This document shows, one piece after another, positions 6,126 through 59,506 of a stretch of DNA of 64,000 nt (the stretch's first letter is position 1; each line of letters starts with the position of its first letter). This stretch comes from Paenibacillus sp. FSL K6-3182 (lineage in GTDB: Bacteria > Bacillota > Bacilli > Paenibacillales > Paenibacillaceae), in NCBI RefSeq assembly GCF_037976325.1, contig NZ_CP150265.1, positions 5,079,501 to 5,143,500 on the forward strand, in the 5' to 3' direction. The translations under genes were made by a program, and so were the position numbers. A model generated the notes under the pieces. It had not been told where the DNA came from. It saw only the letters and a program-made list of their open reading frames with translations, and did no database searches.

Positions 6126-6680
6126 TCAACATATAGCTGTCACAGCAATTGAGGCTATTAGCAGCTCTGGGTGCGGCACAAAGGTGTTCGTCCGGCAAAT
6201 CGAATAAATAACATGCCTAATCATCGGATCTTGAACTTCCTTTTCAGCCCATTCTCGGAATGTTACCCTTTCGAGTTTCGTTGTATCGATTTTAGCTAAT
6301 TTCATCATAAACCGTGCTAGCTCTATTTTCCCAGTAAACGAGAACAATTTAGATGTCAGCAATTGAATGGGTCCAGTCGGCAAAGGAAACACTTGATTGT
6401 TCCAAATTGCGGCCACTGATGGCGGTGGATTGGCTCCTTTTAGCTTAACATCAAGCTCTTTTAGCACTTCCTCGCCTACCCCATCCTGATAGAAAGCATG
6501 AACACCCAGGTTGAGATAAACTCCTTTCTTTTTCACCGTTAATGCCCTTCCGCCCAATCGATTGGACTTTTCGACTAGCAGCACGCATAATCCTGCTTTA
6601 GCCAAATAAATAGAAGCTGTCAGACCAGACAAACCGCCGCCAATAATGACTGCGTCATAGGCTGTTTTTCGCTCATTCAT
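6126..6680 (-). pseudogene. Flavin-dependent oxidoreductase (phytoene dehydrogenase-like), truncated
   Basis: This encodes only the first 184 residues of an FAD/NAD(P)-binding amine-oxidase/phytoene-dehydrogenase-like protein (COG1233). The dinucleotide-binding motif VIIGGGLSGLTAS is near residues 10-22, followed by VEKSNRLGGRA. Family members run to roughly 420-500 residues, so the C-terminal half with the rest of the substrate and FAD domains is absent. The reading frame ends in TGA and the sigma factor begins 1 base later. I chose ATG 6680, which has GAGGTG at 6-base spacing. A deletion joining the two genes is the simplest reading. The stub is unlikely to be active. Confidence 0.7.
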
Positions 6681-7117
6681 TATGATCACCTCATGTTTTT
6701 GCTTATATGACAAATAGCAAAGGTGTTTTGTTACAGAATAGTATTCATTTTTCTGCCCTGATCAGTGCTTAAATGATAATACTACGATTTTTTAATAGAA
6801 TGATGTGCACCGGTTATAATTAATGCATCCCTTGTATGACACATCGTTCTTTAACAAGTGTACTTGTCTCACATAAGTCCCCTGCTACAATTTCCACTTC
6901 AGCTAGAAAACTCGAATGAGGATTACGTGTTAAAAAGCCCTCACTTTTTATCCTAGCTTAGAAACTGATCTACTACTTGCCGTTCAACAGCACTTTCGCT
7001 TCTGTCTCCAAAATTGTCATCACTAATCAACTTCCCATTTTTCTTTGATTCTTTTAACTTCGGTTTGATGGGTGAGAGCAAGTTATCGGTTGAACTCGCT
7101 CTGGCGAAAAAAGATTA
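6681..7117. other. Non-coding stretch upstream of the nuclease-like gene
   Basis: About 440 bases without a convincing gene. It must carry the promoter for the truncated oxidoreductase-sigma pair on the minus strand. An inverted repeat ACAAGT-GT-ACTTGT is at 6854-6867. Nothing else stands out. Confidence 0.4.
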
Positions 7118-7157
7118 TTGAAATCAAATGAATTATCGTTATACTATCTGTATAACG
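7118..7157 (+). promoter_or_regulatory. Promoter overlapped by an inverted repeat (putative operator)
   Basis: TTGAAA (7118-7123), a 16-base spacer and TATACT (7140-7145) form a good sigma-A-type promoter. The -10 box lies inside an inverted repeat CGTTATAC-tatct-GTATAACG (7137-7144 with 7150-7157), so a bound repressor would block it. The downstream gene has its own winged helix, which makes autoregulation possible (inference). Confidence 0.5.
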
Positions 7158-7174
7158 CTGGTCGTGAAGCACAC

Positions 7175-7237
7175 GCCGCTTTGGCACATTCTGCACCTTT
7201 ATGGGTGAACATGTGTTGAAGCGGCTTTTTCGTTTTT
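7175..7237 (+). terminator. Intrinsic terminator inside the gene leader (putative attenuator)
   Basis: A 15-bp stem (7175-7189 with 7211-7225, three G-U pairs) is followed at once by TTTTTCGTTTTT. The 21-base loop holds a smaller stem, CACC with GGTG. No plus-strand gene lies upstream for it to terminate, and the next ORF begins 8 bases after it. It therefore sits in the leader of that gene and may act as an attenuator. Confidence 0.6.
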
Positions 7238-7244
7238 ACCACCA

Positions 7245-7922
7245 ATGATTGAGAGGATGAAAATTGCGATGTCAAGATTTGAACAAGCTTATGAGGAATG
7301 GATGCATTTAGCCATTTCCCAAGAACAAAATCATAGAAGACGGGAATTACTCGAGAAAGGACTTGGCCATGGTACTATTGAATTTTTACGTTCCGTGTGG
7401 TTTCCTGCTGTAAAAAATTTCAACCATCTTTATCCTGAATGGGAAGTTCGTGATTTCAACAATGGATTTCGTTATTTGGATCTAGCTTATATGCCTAGCG
7501 GTGATGTTAAGGGAGGGATTGAAATACAAGGTTATGGACCTCACGCAAGAGACTTGGATGTTAGACGGTTTAAGGACTTATGTTGGCGGCATTGTTTATT
7601 AGCGCTTGATGATTGGGTATTTTTACCGATCGCCTATTTGTCCATTATCGATGAACCGAAGCGCTGCGAGCAGCTCGTTCTTTCTTTTATTGGGAAGTTT
7701 ATCGCTATGGATGCCCCTTGTGATTTGACTTGGCTAGAGGCAGAAACATTCCGGTATGCAAGGCGACTATTTCGTCCATTTTCACCATCGGAACTCGGGT
7801 CCCATCTAGCAATAACCGACCAGCATGCACGGCGAATTCTTCACAAGCTAGTCGATCTCCAGCTATTAACTGTAGTCAGCGGCAATCAACGTTATCGAAC
7901 ATACGGCTTACGAACCCAGTAA
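7245..7922 (+). CDS. Predicted PD-(D/E)XK/Vsr-like nuclease fused to a winged helix
   Basis: A 225-residue protein. Residues 44-115 resemble the DUF559/Vsr-like endonuclease fold: FRYLDLAY gives Asp79, GIEIQGYGPHA gives Glu93, Gln95 and His100, followed by basic RRFKDLCWRHC. This matches the D...ExD-G-x-H pattern, with Gln in place of the last acid. Residues 168-222 form a winged helix (SELGSHLAITDQHARRILHK). Similar proteins in Paenibacillus are, to my recollection, usually called transcriptional regulators. The start is uncertain: ATG 7245 has no ribosome site, while ATG 7269 lies 12 bases after GAGAGG. The last 19 codons are the source-like copy of the repeats that follow. Nuclease activity is inference. 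Confidence 0.6.
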   Translation: MIERMKIAMSRFEQAYEEWMHLAISQEQNHRRRELLEKGLGHGTIEFLRSVWFPAVKNFNHLYPEWEVRDFNNGFRYLDLAYMPSGDVKGGIEIQGYGPHARDLDVRRFKDLCWRHCLLALDDWVFLPIAYLSIIDEPKRCEQLVLSFIGKFIAMDAPCDLTWLEAETFRYARRLFRPFSPSELGSHLAITDQHARRILHKLVDLQLLTVVSGNQRYRTYGLRTQ

Positions 7923-7931
7923 TTCTTATCC

Positions 7932-8205
7932 TCGGCTATTGGCTGTGGTCAGCAGTAATCAACGATATCAGACAAATGGCTAACGAACCCAGTAACTCTT
8001 ATTTGCCCAAAATGTAACGACTAATTATTCTTACGAACTCCACTATCGTTATTTCGAGTAAAACTGCTCATATTCCACTTAATCTGACGCAATAACACCA
8101 ATAGGGTTCGTTAAAATAATAAAAATGTAGTTTTCTCCAATATAAGCGCACTACAGTTCGTTAGAAAAATCTCACTGATACAATTCGTTTACTCTTCAAT
8201 CTTAT
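7932..8205. repeat. Repeat module 1 (one A unit, one middle segment, one C unit)
   Basis: Directly after the nuclease-like gene. The first 75 bases repeat the last 70 bases of the gene (7862-7930), including the codons around the stop. A middle segment follows (CTTACGAACTCCACTATCG, then TTATTTCGAGTAAAAC), then one C unit (TTTTCTCCAATATAAGC, then GTTCGTTAG), ending in GATACAATTCG. The same order recurs at 8880-9345. No coding potential is seen. Confidence 0.75.
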
Positions 8206-8209
8206 ATAG

Positions 8210-8235
8210 AGGGGTGAAGCTAAGTGTTCACCCCT
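8210..8235. other. 9-bp perfect hairpin between the two repeat modules
   Basis: AGGGGTGAA (8210-8218) pairs with TTCACCCCT (8227-8235) around an 8-base loop. There is no T-run after it on either strand, so it is not a typical terminator. It marks the spacer between the two repeat modules. Confidence 0.5.
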
Positions 8236-8350
8236 TACTAAAAAGGTTACATCGTTTACTCGGCATGTAATTACAGAGGGAATGGTCATCAACCTATGAA
8301 TTACAGCTCAGTATGCGATGTGAATCCTCCATAATCTAGTCAATTTCAGT

Positions 8351-8880
8351 TACATACTGTACTCTGCCATAATCAACGTTAGTAGATAAACTACTTAAGA
8401 ACTCAGTAACTCGTATCTTTAACTTCTTACTGTACTCATACTCAGCAGCAATCAACGTCATCAGATAGCTACTTAAGAACACAGTAACTCGTATCTTTAA
8501 CTTCTCACTGTACTCATACTCAGCAGCAATCAACGTCATTAGATAGGCTACTTAAGAACTCAGTAACTCATATCTCCAACTTCTTACTGTACTCATACTC
8601 AGCAGCAATCAACGTCATTAGATTAGCTACTTAAGAACTCTGTAACTCGAATCTCCAACTTCTTACTGTACTCAAACGCAATAAACGTCATTAATTAAGC
8701 TACTTAAGAACTCAGTAACTCATATCTCCAACTTCTTACTGTACTCAGCAGCAATCAACATCATTAGATAAGCTACTTAAGAACTCAATAACTCGTATCT
8801 CCAACTTCTTACTGTACTCAGCAGCAATCAACATCATTAGATAGGCTACTTAAGAACTCAATAACTCGTATCTCCAACTT
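8351..8880. repeat. Tandem array of A units (about seven copies, 73-79 bp)
   Basis: Each unit reads approximately CTTACTGTACTCAGCAGCAA, TCAACGTCATTAGATAGGCT, ACTTAAGAACTCAGTAACTC, then GTATCTCCAACTT. Copies begin near 8351, 8425, 8503, 8582, 8661, 8734 and 8807, and an eighth, divergent copy starts near 8880 and runs into the next segment. Units differ at scattered positions and by a 6-base ATACTC insert. There are no unique spacers, so it is not a CRISPR array. The unit aligns with the 3' end of the gene at 7245-7922. Confidence 0.85.
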
Positions 8881-9056
8881 CTTACTGTACTCATCCGCAA
8901 TCAACTTTAGTGGACATCCGAGCTAACGAATCAAGTAACGCTTATTTGCTTATAATGTAGCAACTTATTGTTCTTACGAACCTCACAATCGTTATTTCGA
9001 GTAAAACAGCTCATTTTGCGCTGAATATGGGTCGATAACGCCAATGGTGTTCGTTA
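8880..9056. repeat. Repeat module 2, divergent A unit plus middle segment
   Basis: This is a second copy of the segment at about 7935-8115. Shared blocks include the region around TAATGTAGCAAC, TTCTTACGAACCTCAC, AATCGTTATTTCGAGTAAAA and the stretch ending GTTCGTTAAAATAA. It links the expanded A array to the expanded C array, so modules 1 and 2 have the same A-middle-C order. Confidence 0.75.
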
Positions 9057-9345
9057 AAATAAAAAAACCTTAGTTTTCTCCAATATAAGCATAGTACGGT
9101 TCGTTAGACAGGTGCCACCATTCGTAAAAACAAATAAACCTTAGTTTTCTCCAATATAAGCACGCTACGGTTCGTTAGACAGGTGCTACCATTCGTAAAA
9201 ACACATAACCCCAGTTTTCGCTAATATAAGCACGCAACGGATCGTTAGACAGGTACCACCATTCGTAAAAACACATATCCCTAGTTTGCGCTAATATAAG
9301 CACGCTATGGTTTGTTAACAAAATAAACACGGATACAATCCGCCT
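9057..9345. repeat. Tandem array of C units (four copies, about 70 bp)
   Basis: Copies start at 9057, 9126, 9197 and 9267. The core is TTAGTTTTCTCCAATATAAG, CACGCTACGGTTCGTTAGAC, AGGTGCTACCATTCGT. The last copy ends GATACAATCCG, like the single C unit of module 1 (GATACAATTCG). Pairwise identity is high for the first three copies and lower for the fourth, so the expansion looks recent. Confidence 0.85.
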
Positions 9346-9665
9346 ACTATATAATCTCTCCTATGTGTAAAGTGTAGCAGATTGTGTTTGGTCACATTTA
9401 ATAGTGACCGACCGATGAAATACGACTTGCAGGTTGACACTTTTCTTCTTCAACCAGTCCAAAATGTTGTTAAAAAGAATCCGCGTCCACTCGGCAAATC
9501 CAAAAAGTGCTACAAAGCTTACATTTCCCATCGTTCTCCGTAAGAACGCGGCCAAAGTAATTCATTCATGGTCTGCATAAAACCACCGTTTTCTTCTAGA
9601 CAACAAGAGAAAAGTGAGCTACACTTTGTTAGAATTTGGAAAGATCATGAGGAGAATGGAGCAGG
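9346..9665. other. Non-coding stretch upstream of the MFS gene
   Basis: About 320 bases. A 64-codon open frame on the minus strand (9361-9555) has no ribosome site and no family resemblance I can name. It could be a remnant of something. The promoter for the MFS gene must lie towards 9600-9650. Confidence 0.35.
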
Positions 9666-10853
9666 TTGAAGATGCGTATTGCCGCAGATATGAAACGTTT
9701 TTTGCAGGTGGATGGTGCAGGTAGGATGCTTTTCACCTTATTTTGTTATGGCATCGGCATGGGCATTCTAGCACCGATGAATGCTATCTATTTAAGTGAG
9801 AGCATCGGACTTTCAAAGAATGAAGTCGTATCGATCTTCGTTGTGTCACTGCTGCTCAATATGGGAACTACGATTACAGTTGGACTTTTAAGTGATAAGC
9901 TGCGCAGCAGAAAAAGACTGGTCATTGCCGCTGCTTTGTTATGTCTCGTCGGTTTGATAATTTACATGAATGCAGAAGGTTATGTCCAGGCGCTGATCGG
10001 CATGTGTGTTGTGAGCGCTCCGTCCGGACTCATTATGGGACAATTGTTCGCTATATCTCGAAATCACTTTGCTAGACTTGCCGGAGATATTGTGGAGATG
10101 GCACAAATTTGGCTGCGCGCAGGGTATAGTGTTGGATTTTTTTGCGGTTTGCTGGCAGGAGCGAATTTGTATTTGATTGCTACGTTTCAAGGTGTATTAT
10201 GGGGCAACTTTGCAGGTTACGCAATGCTCGTTATCCTGCTGTTGTTCTACCGGGAACACTCTGAAGAGAAAAAACAAGCTAATATGGGAGCGAGCGAGCC
10301 TTTTTCCCTCATTATGCTAATTGCTCTGCTGCTGCTTGCATGCGCAGATGCCATTCGCGGATTGTACTTGCCGCTTGTCGTTAAAACGTTGTTCGGCAAG
10401 CCGGAATATATGTCTTATATTTGGAGCTCCCAAGCCGTATTCGAGCTGTTGTTCATGACCATCGCCGGTTATTGGGCGGCGAAATACGGCAGCAAAATAA
10501 TTATTTTAATCGGCGGCTTTGGGGCGCTTATTACTTATACGATTTATGCCTTGCGCTCGCCATTGATCGTTTTTTTCCTCATTCAGCCGATTTATTCTTT
10601 TTTTGTATCCATCTTGTACGGAGTAGCGATGGGGTATGTGCAGCGCATGTTCGCAGGCCGGACCGGATTCGGCGCAAGCTTGTACGTTTTCATTTCACTA
10701 ACGGCATCATTAATCGGATATTTGTTACCATTATTCATCGAAGGCTACGATCCATCCATATTCGTCATTCCAATTGCGCTAGTATCTATTTCAATAACGA
10801 TTATGTCTATCGTGCTGATAAGGGAACGTCGTCTGTCACAGCTGCCTCAATAA
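9666..10853 (+). CDS. MFS transporter, sugar-efflux (SetA)-like
   Basis: A 395-residue major facilitator with about 12 hydrophobic segments. The N-terminal half carries AIYLSESIGLSKNEV and GLLSDKLRSRKR (motif A, near residue 75), a layout like SetA/sugar-efflux and related DHA1 proteins. GGAG lies upstream of both TTG 9666 and ATG 9672; the ATG has the better spacing (about 10 bases). A strong terminator follows. It stands between the repeat region and sugar locus 1 on the opposite strand. Export of a sugar or drug is inferred only from family. Confidence 0.7.
   Translation: MKMRIAADMKRFLQVDGAGRMLFTLFCYGIGMGILAPMNAIYLSESIGLSKNEVVSIFVVSLLLNMGTTITVGLLSDKLRSRKRLVIAAALLCLVGLIIYMNAEGYVQALIGMCVVSAPSGLIMGQLFAISRNHFARLAGDIVEMAQIWLRAGYSVGFFCGLLAGANLYLIATFQGVLWGNFAGYAMLVILLLFYREHSEEKKQANMGASEPFSLIMLIALLLLACADAIRGLYLPLVVKTLFGKPEYMSYIWSSQAVFELLFMTIAGYWAAKYGSKIIILIGGFGALITYTIYALRSPLIVFFLIQPIYSFFVSILYGVAMGYVQRMFAGRTGFGASLYVFISLTASLIGYLLPLFIEGYDPSIFVIPIALVSISITIMSIVLIRERRLSQLPQ

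Positions 10854-58353: not shown

Positions 58354-59506
<1,153 letters not shown>

Follow-up and report, generated by a model that had tools for sequence, protein, structure and literature searches.

A predicted nuclease–winged-helix gene adjoining a dispersed four-unit repeat in Paenibacillus

The closest described precedent for a resident enzyme gene lying beside palindromic repeats is the REP/RAYT system, in which the repeats, discussed also in the context of REPINs (PMC3116915), have dispersed intergenic copies, and each copy of the enzyme is paired with a repeat family of its own. RAYTs (TnpA_REP) are IS200/IS605-type tyrosine enzymes; according to the portion of the source drawn on here, their ORFs always lie between two inverted REPs, each REP being a palindrome with a GT(A/G)G head (PMC2817692). 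Dispersed repeats are described from Bacillales as well, among them bcr1 (Bcr1) of the Bacillus cereus group, at 167 nt, and Bhal-1 of B. halodurans, at 74 nt and with 36 copies (PMC2267715); the part of that account used here mentions no linked enzyme gene, and our comparison of these repeats with the element reported below is by description. The nearest likeness in fold for the protein considered here is to the Vsr endonuclease and the EDxHD homing endonucleases; I-Bth0305I has a long multi-domain DNA-binding region (PMC3943268). In literature that included full texts, in part, of PMC3733652, PMC2817692, PMC3116915, PMC3943268, PMC1189080 and PMC2267715, and that scarcely covered subscription journals, we found nothing linking DUF559/Vsr-like winged-helix proteins to dispersed repeats.

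The present locus lies in Paenibacillus sp. FSL K6-3182, within a stretch of 64,000 nucleotides (the window) that occupies 5079501-5143500 of a single-contig, 7.56-Mb genome (G000). The 3' end of a gene there abuts an element of four units (> 50 > 83 < 50 <) that is dispersed in the same genome, and related genes carry other motifs in the same or a similar geometry. We regard it as moderately likely that the gene encodes a resident enzyme and has a dispersed repeat family of its own, an arrangement organized like REP/RAYT and built from other parts.

The gene, on the plus strand, is an ORF of 225 aa at 7245-7922; its likely start is the ATG at 7269, giving 217 aa, and most of the 120 homologues listed are 215-218 aa long, those read beginning where this ATG stands. 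An earlier note on this DNA had predicted a nuclease joined to a DNA-binding domain, and the two-domain architecture is borne out. Because winged helices filled the whole-model VIA look, the N-terminal domain (7269-7715) was predicted separately, and by itself it matches the fold of Vsr/EDxHD nucleases, with conserved acidic and His residues present; D71, E85, H92 and R107 are invariant in all 60 aligned family members. The C-terminal domain (7716-7922) is a winged helix. Searching solved structures with a sequence profile yielded no match. The window protein itself has no significant Pfam match and does not pass the DUF559 or REase_MTES_1575 cut-off, although 23 and 25 of 60 members, respectively, do match these families (E up to 0.01); the commonest Pfam matches among the 60 are MTES_1575, DUF559 and MarR_2, and no Y1 (HUH) transposase occurs among the 25 listed of their 30 matching families. 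Unlike Vsr and the EDxHD homing endonucleases, this family has a dispersed repeat family attached, and in place of the long multi-domain DNA-binding region of I-Bth0305I it has a winged helix.

A different reading of the protein is that it is a DNA-binding regulator or chromosome-organizing factor, the elements being host-useful binding sites, the gene-side copy autoregulatory and the nuclease fold a reused, non-cutting scaffold. Taken as a whole explanation we think this rather unlikely. The protein search found 1002 homologues. Where names are given they are mostly ‘transcriptional regulator’, ‘DNA-binding response regulator’ or ‘hypothetical protein’, and a name such as the first suits a regulator. 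So does residue 87, two positions past the conserved Glu, which is Q in 25/25 close members as against D in 34 of 35 distant ones, a substitution that makes catalysis in the close clade uncertain. The invariance of D71, E85 and H92 argues in the opposite direction. Two other identities were considered and set aside. One is a known defence gene: PADLOC gives no match for the window protein, and the SoFic model is matched weakly by 26 of 60 members (best E 2.4e-5). The other is phage or plasmid cargo, for which there are zero phage matches and a single plasmid record, with 27% identity. Seven neighbouring genes in the window were tested, and none of them turns up in the flanks (1.5 to 4 kb a side) of other-species homologues, so the gene's place is seemingly not kept across species. 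Separately, window 6126-6713 holds a FAD-dependent oxidoreductase gene (named by eye), a reading frame of 195 aa, and at window 6140 a second genome of the species, G284, has 783 additional bases (126058-126840 of its contig C9), either lost in G000 or gained in G284.

The element next to the gene spans 187 bp (7979-8165, plus strand; element A), and outside the window the source genome contains 20 further matches at 67-74% identity, 15 of which span at least 181 bp. Its consensus consists of four units, TAACGAAC...TTAT(T), in the order > > < < with spacings of 50, 83 and 50; the units read TAACGAAC...CGTTATTT, and the element as a whole is palindromic with sharp ends. In a set of 38 copies (18 from G000 and 20 from G284, many being orthologous pairs), 36 align to the consensus free of gaps, and the units are more conserved than the spacers (1.52 versus 1.11 bits). 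This fixity of length and spacing, together with the higher conservation of the units, is again what one would want of host binding sites. At the 18 dispersed G000 loci examined there is no overlap with an ORF of at least 110 aa, and the gene context of these copies is tandem in 11, convergent in 5, divergent in 1 and undetermined in 1. The single-strand fold of the window copy is weak (z -1.9), which suits a REP-type hairpin less well than paired binding sites on double-stranded DNA. Many dispersed copies (L004, L010, L011, L013, L017 and others) have a similar terminator-like hairpin some 40-110 nt before the element, for example GAGCTGTCCCAAAAGTAGAT...GGAACAGCTC followed by a T-run, and the dispersed unit may thus be some 300 bp. 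Dispersed palindromes with sharp ends would also be expected of a classical miniature transposon of a DDE insertion sequence, sitting beside the gene by chance. We consider this origin highly improbable, since the linkage recurs in many species beside one gene that is not of the DDE type; no target duplication was seen between G000 and G284 either, where no clean empty site was available.

Past the stop codon the earlier note had described nested repeats. Repeats there are, but in place of nesting we find two complete 187-bp elements together with tandem arrays, some built from the 3' end of the gene and others from the right end of the element. All of these lie on the plus strand. The last 73 nt of the gene end (7855-7927) are followed directly after the stop codon by a copy at 7928-8000 that is 79% identical (TRF: 73 nt x 1.9, 7862-8002, score 198). 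Element A comes next, its units starting near 7981 (>) and 8031 (>) and ending near 8113 (<) and 8163 (<), and then an array (8342-8942; TRF: 73 nt x 6.9, 8371-8894, score 747) whose units, of 73-79 nt, are related to the 3' end of the gene. Element B, 82% identical to element A, occupies 8922-9108, and a 70-nt array made of the element's right end runs from 9066 to 9317 (TRF: 70 nt x 3.6, score 362). Against five array units tested, the gene-end 73 nt score 63-71% identity; 5000 shuffles of each never exceed 48%, and the rest of the window's plus strand reaches no more than 47%. Copies of the gene's 3' end likewise lie downstream at two other loci (L031, 92% over 89 nt; L025, 81% over 74 nt), the corresponding figure for the window being 82% over 61 nt plus further array copies.

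Tandem arrays of period at least 10 within 1200 nt of the gene occur downstream at 46 of 90 loci and upstream at 21 of 90, near-duplicate loci included. Such arrays, like the duplicated gene ends, suggest that DNA is broken or copied locally, and in this they weigh against a purely regulatory protein. A chance tandem repeat private to the window locus was also considered and rejected, as relatives carry elements at the equivalent place. The arrays vary between loci in period and sequence, and this variation lends something to the idea that the repeats are a passive by-product, with a slippage-prone gene 3' region and a dispersed family spread by some unrelated route. That idea strikes us as very improbable, given the recurrence of the 50/51-bp geometry, with different motifs, in distant relatives and its rarity at other 3' ends (below). 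Other simple repeats were noted in passing: the paralogue L028 has twelve copies of the 6-nt AAGAGT 35 nt past its stop codon; at L113, GGGTGCGAA occurs five times downstream of the gene, at the end of the 330 nt printed past the stop; and window 58588-58788 is a tandem repeat of CCTGTTGCT-type units, with periods of 9, 18, 27 and 45, perhaps a repetitive protein gene.

The association of element and gene extends well beyond the window. An HMM built from 20 G000 copies (18 dispersed and 2 in the window) and run on 78 of 91 loci gave 38 matches in the 93.1 kb lying 3' of stop codons versus 8 in the 249.8 kb elsewhere. Matches occur at 28 of 50 close loci and at 0 of 28 distant ones, and in 24 of the 28 matched loci the first match begins no more than 60 nt from the stop codon and often overlaps it. 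The window gene (L024) has no element in the 1500 nt upstream. A scan of all direct offsets from 20 to 199 at 61 loci, recovering a spacing that had been noticed beforehand among the element units, peaks at 50 (20 loci) and 51 (18 loci), with no other offset above 7. Taken together, a direct offset of 50/51 is found downstream at 35 of 61 loci, upstream at 6 of 61 and at 3 of 68 control gene ends; other offset pairs average 2.2 loci, with a maximum of 10. (The 61 of 91 loci counted are those left after dropping near-duplicates, L032, partial matches and contig-end loci.) Because many loci are related by descent, Fisher values for these counts overstate independence. By clade, the 50/51 offset is present at 25 of 36 close and 10 of 25 distant loci; it is absent at 26 of the 61. 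An inverted span of 76-86 behaves similarly (21/61 downstream, 1/61 upstream and 2/68 control ends). A plain inverted-repeat score is higher downstream than upstream in 59 and lower in 11 of 73 loci, a set that includes L032, an anomalous row that is apparently an N run; a score of at least 22, reached by 12 of 73 loci and by 6 of 68 control gene ends, is alone a weak discriminator, the fairly high control scores likely being caused by terminators.

Among distant relatives the motif changes and the spacing recurs: 51-77-51 in Virgibacillus, 50-77-51 in Paenibacillus L049 and 50-83-50 in L036. The motifs tried gave the complete chain of four units at 4 of 20 loci (L036, L037, L038 and L049) and part of it at others, L025 and L081 yielding a single unit only. 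The distant relatives printed have repeated motifs of different sequence 3' of the gene, with exceptions that include L029 and L111. The gene-linked element of Virgibacillus subterraneus (L038, in genome G567) has a CGGATCC... motif and 46 matching pieces, counted as 29 sites outside the gene locus, of which 8 measure 175 bp or more.

Within the source genome itself there are seven homologues, the window gene included. A 69%-identical paralogue (L025) adjoins an element with a different motif, AACGGACATAGG..., which has 20 other matches in G000, mostly partial, with three exceeding 120 nt; a 33%-identical paralogue (L027) has a 123-bp unit, and 20 pieces that match this unit lie away from its array, in clusters at several sites. 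A separate repeat family for each enzyme copy thus held for three of the seven genes, the window gene, L025 and L027, these being the ones tested, and the difference in repeats between the paralogues tested counts against the regulatory reading. The earlier note had suggested a repeat-linked unit, and the 35 of 61 loci with 50/51-bp repeats 3' of the gene speak for it; homologues do not mostly lack either such repeats or the leader motif described below.

The dispersed copies appear to be old. Of the 20 G000 copies outside the window, 15 align together with their flanks in 20 fetched stretches of G284, and such identity of sites between genomes would be natural for host-useful binding sites. 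L011 probably also matches G284, by eye, and one of the four unmatched G284 copies, L143, proved on direct search to be shared with G000. Partners were not found for L021, L022 and L023 of G000 or for L137, L140 and L155 of G284, and the left flank of L015 was not placeable. Among the remaining copies examined no clean empty site was found, and no insertion polymorphism was seen between the two genomes; mobility of the element was not observed among the copies compared, and no recent jump was caught between G000 and G284. The gene-side unit, on the other hand, does differ. G284 is without window 6766-9571 and has 50 nt there instead, by eye resembling the repeat, which makes deletion with a scar likelier than precise excision or prior absence and led us to reject clean insertion of the whole unit. 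Another genome of the genus, G237, has at least two elements (the multi-genome DNA search scored two candidates per genome and so is unusable for copy counts) and no detectable protein homologue, a point in favor of the repeats being a mere by-product. From the copies shared with G284 and the elements of G237, it seems that copies are long inherited and able to outlive the gene.

The leader of the gene has features of its own, and its hairpin, like the gene and the repeats, lies where the earlier note had placed it. The promoter-like TTGAAA-16-TATACT (7118-7145, plus strand) has 10 of 12 matches, and TATACT is kept in 10 of the 12 relatives printed, though 10 sites of that quality were found in 3 kb versus 8.0 expected in shuffles. 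The dyad over the -10 region, GTTATAC-TATCT-GTATAAC (7138-7156), is real and, among the 12 relatives printed, perfect only in L031. A mini-hairpin, CGUG-AAGCA-CACG (7163-7175, plus strand), precedes an intrinsic terminator (7175-7230, plus strand) whose hairpin (7175-7225, then TTTTT) has a predicted stability of -33.8 kcal/mol and a z of -4.2, with 0 of 200 shuffles equally stable; a simple terminator scan with a loop limit of 3-8 nt did not list it. A CM matches at 7154-7230 with 75.4 bits, the window leader being among the sequences used to build it. A known RNA family was considered and rejected, Rfam giving no match up to E 1 in 6200-10000.

A GAAG(C/A)AC motif followed by a T-run lies upstream of the gene at 48 of 80 loci; those that carry a label all belong to Paenibacillaceae. 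In the alignment of 37 of these 48 leaders, the four-pair hairpin around the AAG(C/A)A loop is paired in 98.6% of cells, compared with at most 66% for slid controls, and changes on both sides affect three of its four pairs and 27 cells. Three of the five measures, namely percentage paired, compensated cells and covariation score, are higher than in any of 500 shuffles; pairs changed on both sides and further pair types do not rise above them. RNAalifold picked the identical hairpin. The leader model recovers L036 and L045, neither used in building it, and has no significant match in the 21 loci scanned from outside Paenibacillaceae. Across the whole of G000 it gives four matches with E < 0.01, each just upstream of a homologue and all members used in building the model, whereas L026 and L030, although in the model, fall below the strength of the E 1 threshold. 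Since these matches sit at the model's own genes, the informative part is that no strong matches occur elsewhere. The leader may act as an attenuator: its terminator would keep expression low, with the mini-hairpin as a putative control point.

How, then, might gene and repeat be connected? The protein may recognize and multiply the repeats, as the earlier note had surmised. The protein would bind the element units through its winged helix, probably acting as a dimer of dimers; such an arrangement would account for the fixed unit spacing. Somewhat less surely, the nuclease domain might cut or nick the element at its outer units. If repair or copying then drew on the gene-side element, spread could be rare in trans and frequent locally, the latter producing tandem arrays at the gene's 3' end. 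A protein that cuts and spreads the element and a regulator that binds it are both candidates, the latter, as a whole explanation, on the doubtful side. Assembled in full, the proposal is of an undescribed selfish or domesticated repeat system in which a Vsr/EDxHD-fold nuclease with a winged helix assembles on its own element into a complex with four sites in fixed geometry, copies the element genome-wide, amplifies its own gene end locally, and is restrained by a leader terminator with a covarying hairpin; in this complete form we offer it tentatively, as a possibility falling a little short of probable.

Compared with REP/RAYT, the locus has the many intergenic copies and departs in enzyme, flanking and head motif. 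The window family has a Vsr/EDxHD fold with a winged helix and is not a tyrosine enzyme; its elements lie mostly on the 3' side only (38 versus 8 HMM matches) instead of flanking the gene in inverted fashion on both sides; and its units are four spaced sites lacking a GTAG head, with the weak single-strand fold of the window copy. A resident enzyme accompanied by dispersed palindromes has one precedent as an organizing idea, namely REP/RAYT, and we found none for the parts employed here. All of this points to a gene-and-repeat partnership that is undescribed.

To our knowledge, for most of the dispersed intergenic repeats in Gram-positive bacteria no maker is known. If the reading favored here is true, a non-HUH enzyme with its own repeat family would represent a second route to REP-like repeats, the nuclease-repeat system having evolved independently of HUH-based REP/RAYT. 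With 1002 homologues the system could be widespread, the repeats having been counted at 61 loci only, and it would carry a meaning for proteins now named ‘transcriptional regulator’, ‘DNA-binding response regulator’ or ‘hypothetical protein’. As the 50/51-bp geometry recurs across genera, it would also provide a testable handle on the origin and persistence of such repeat populations.
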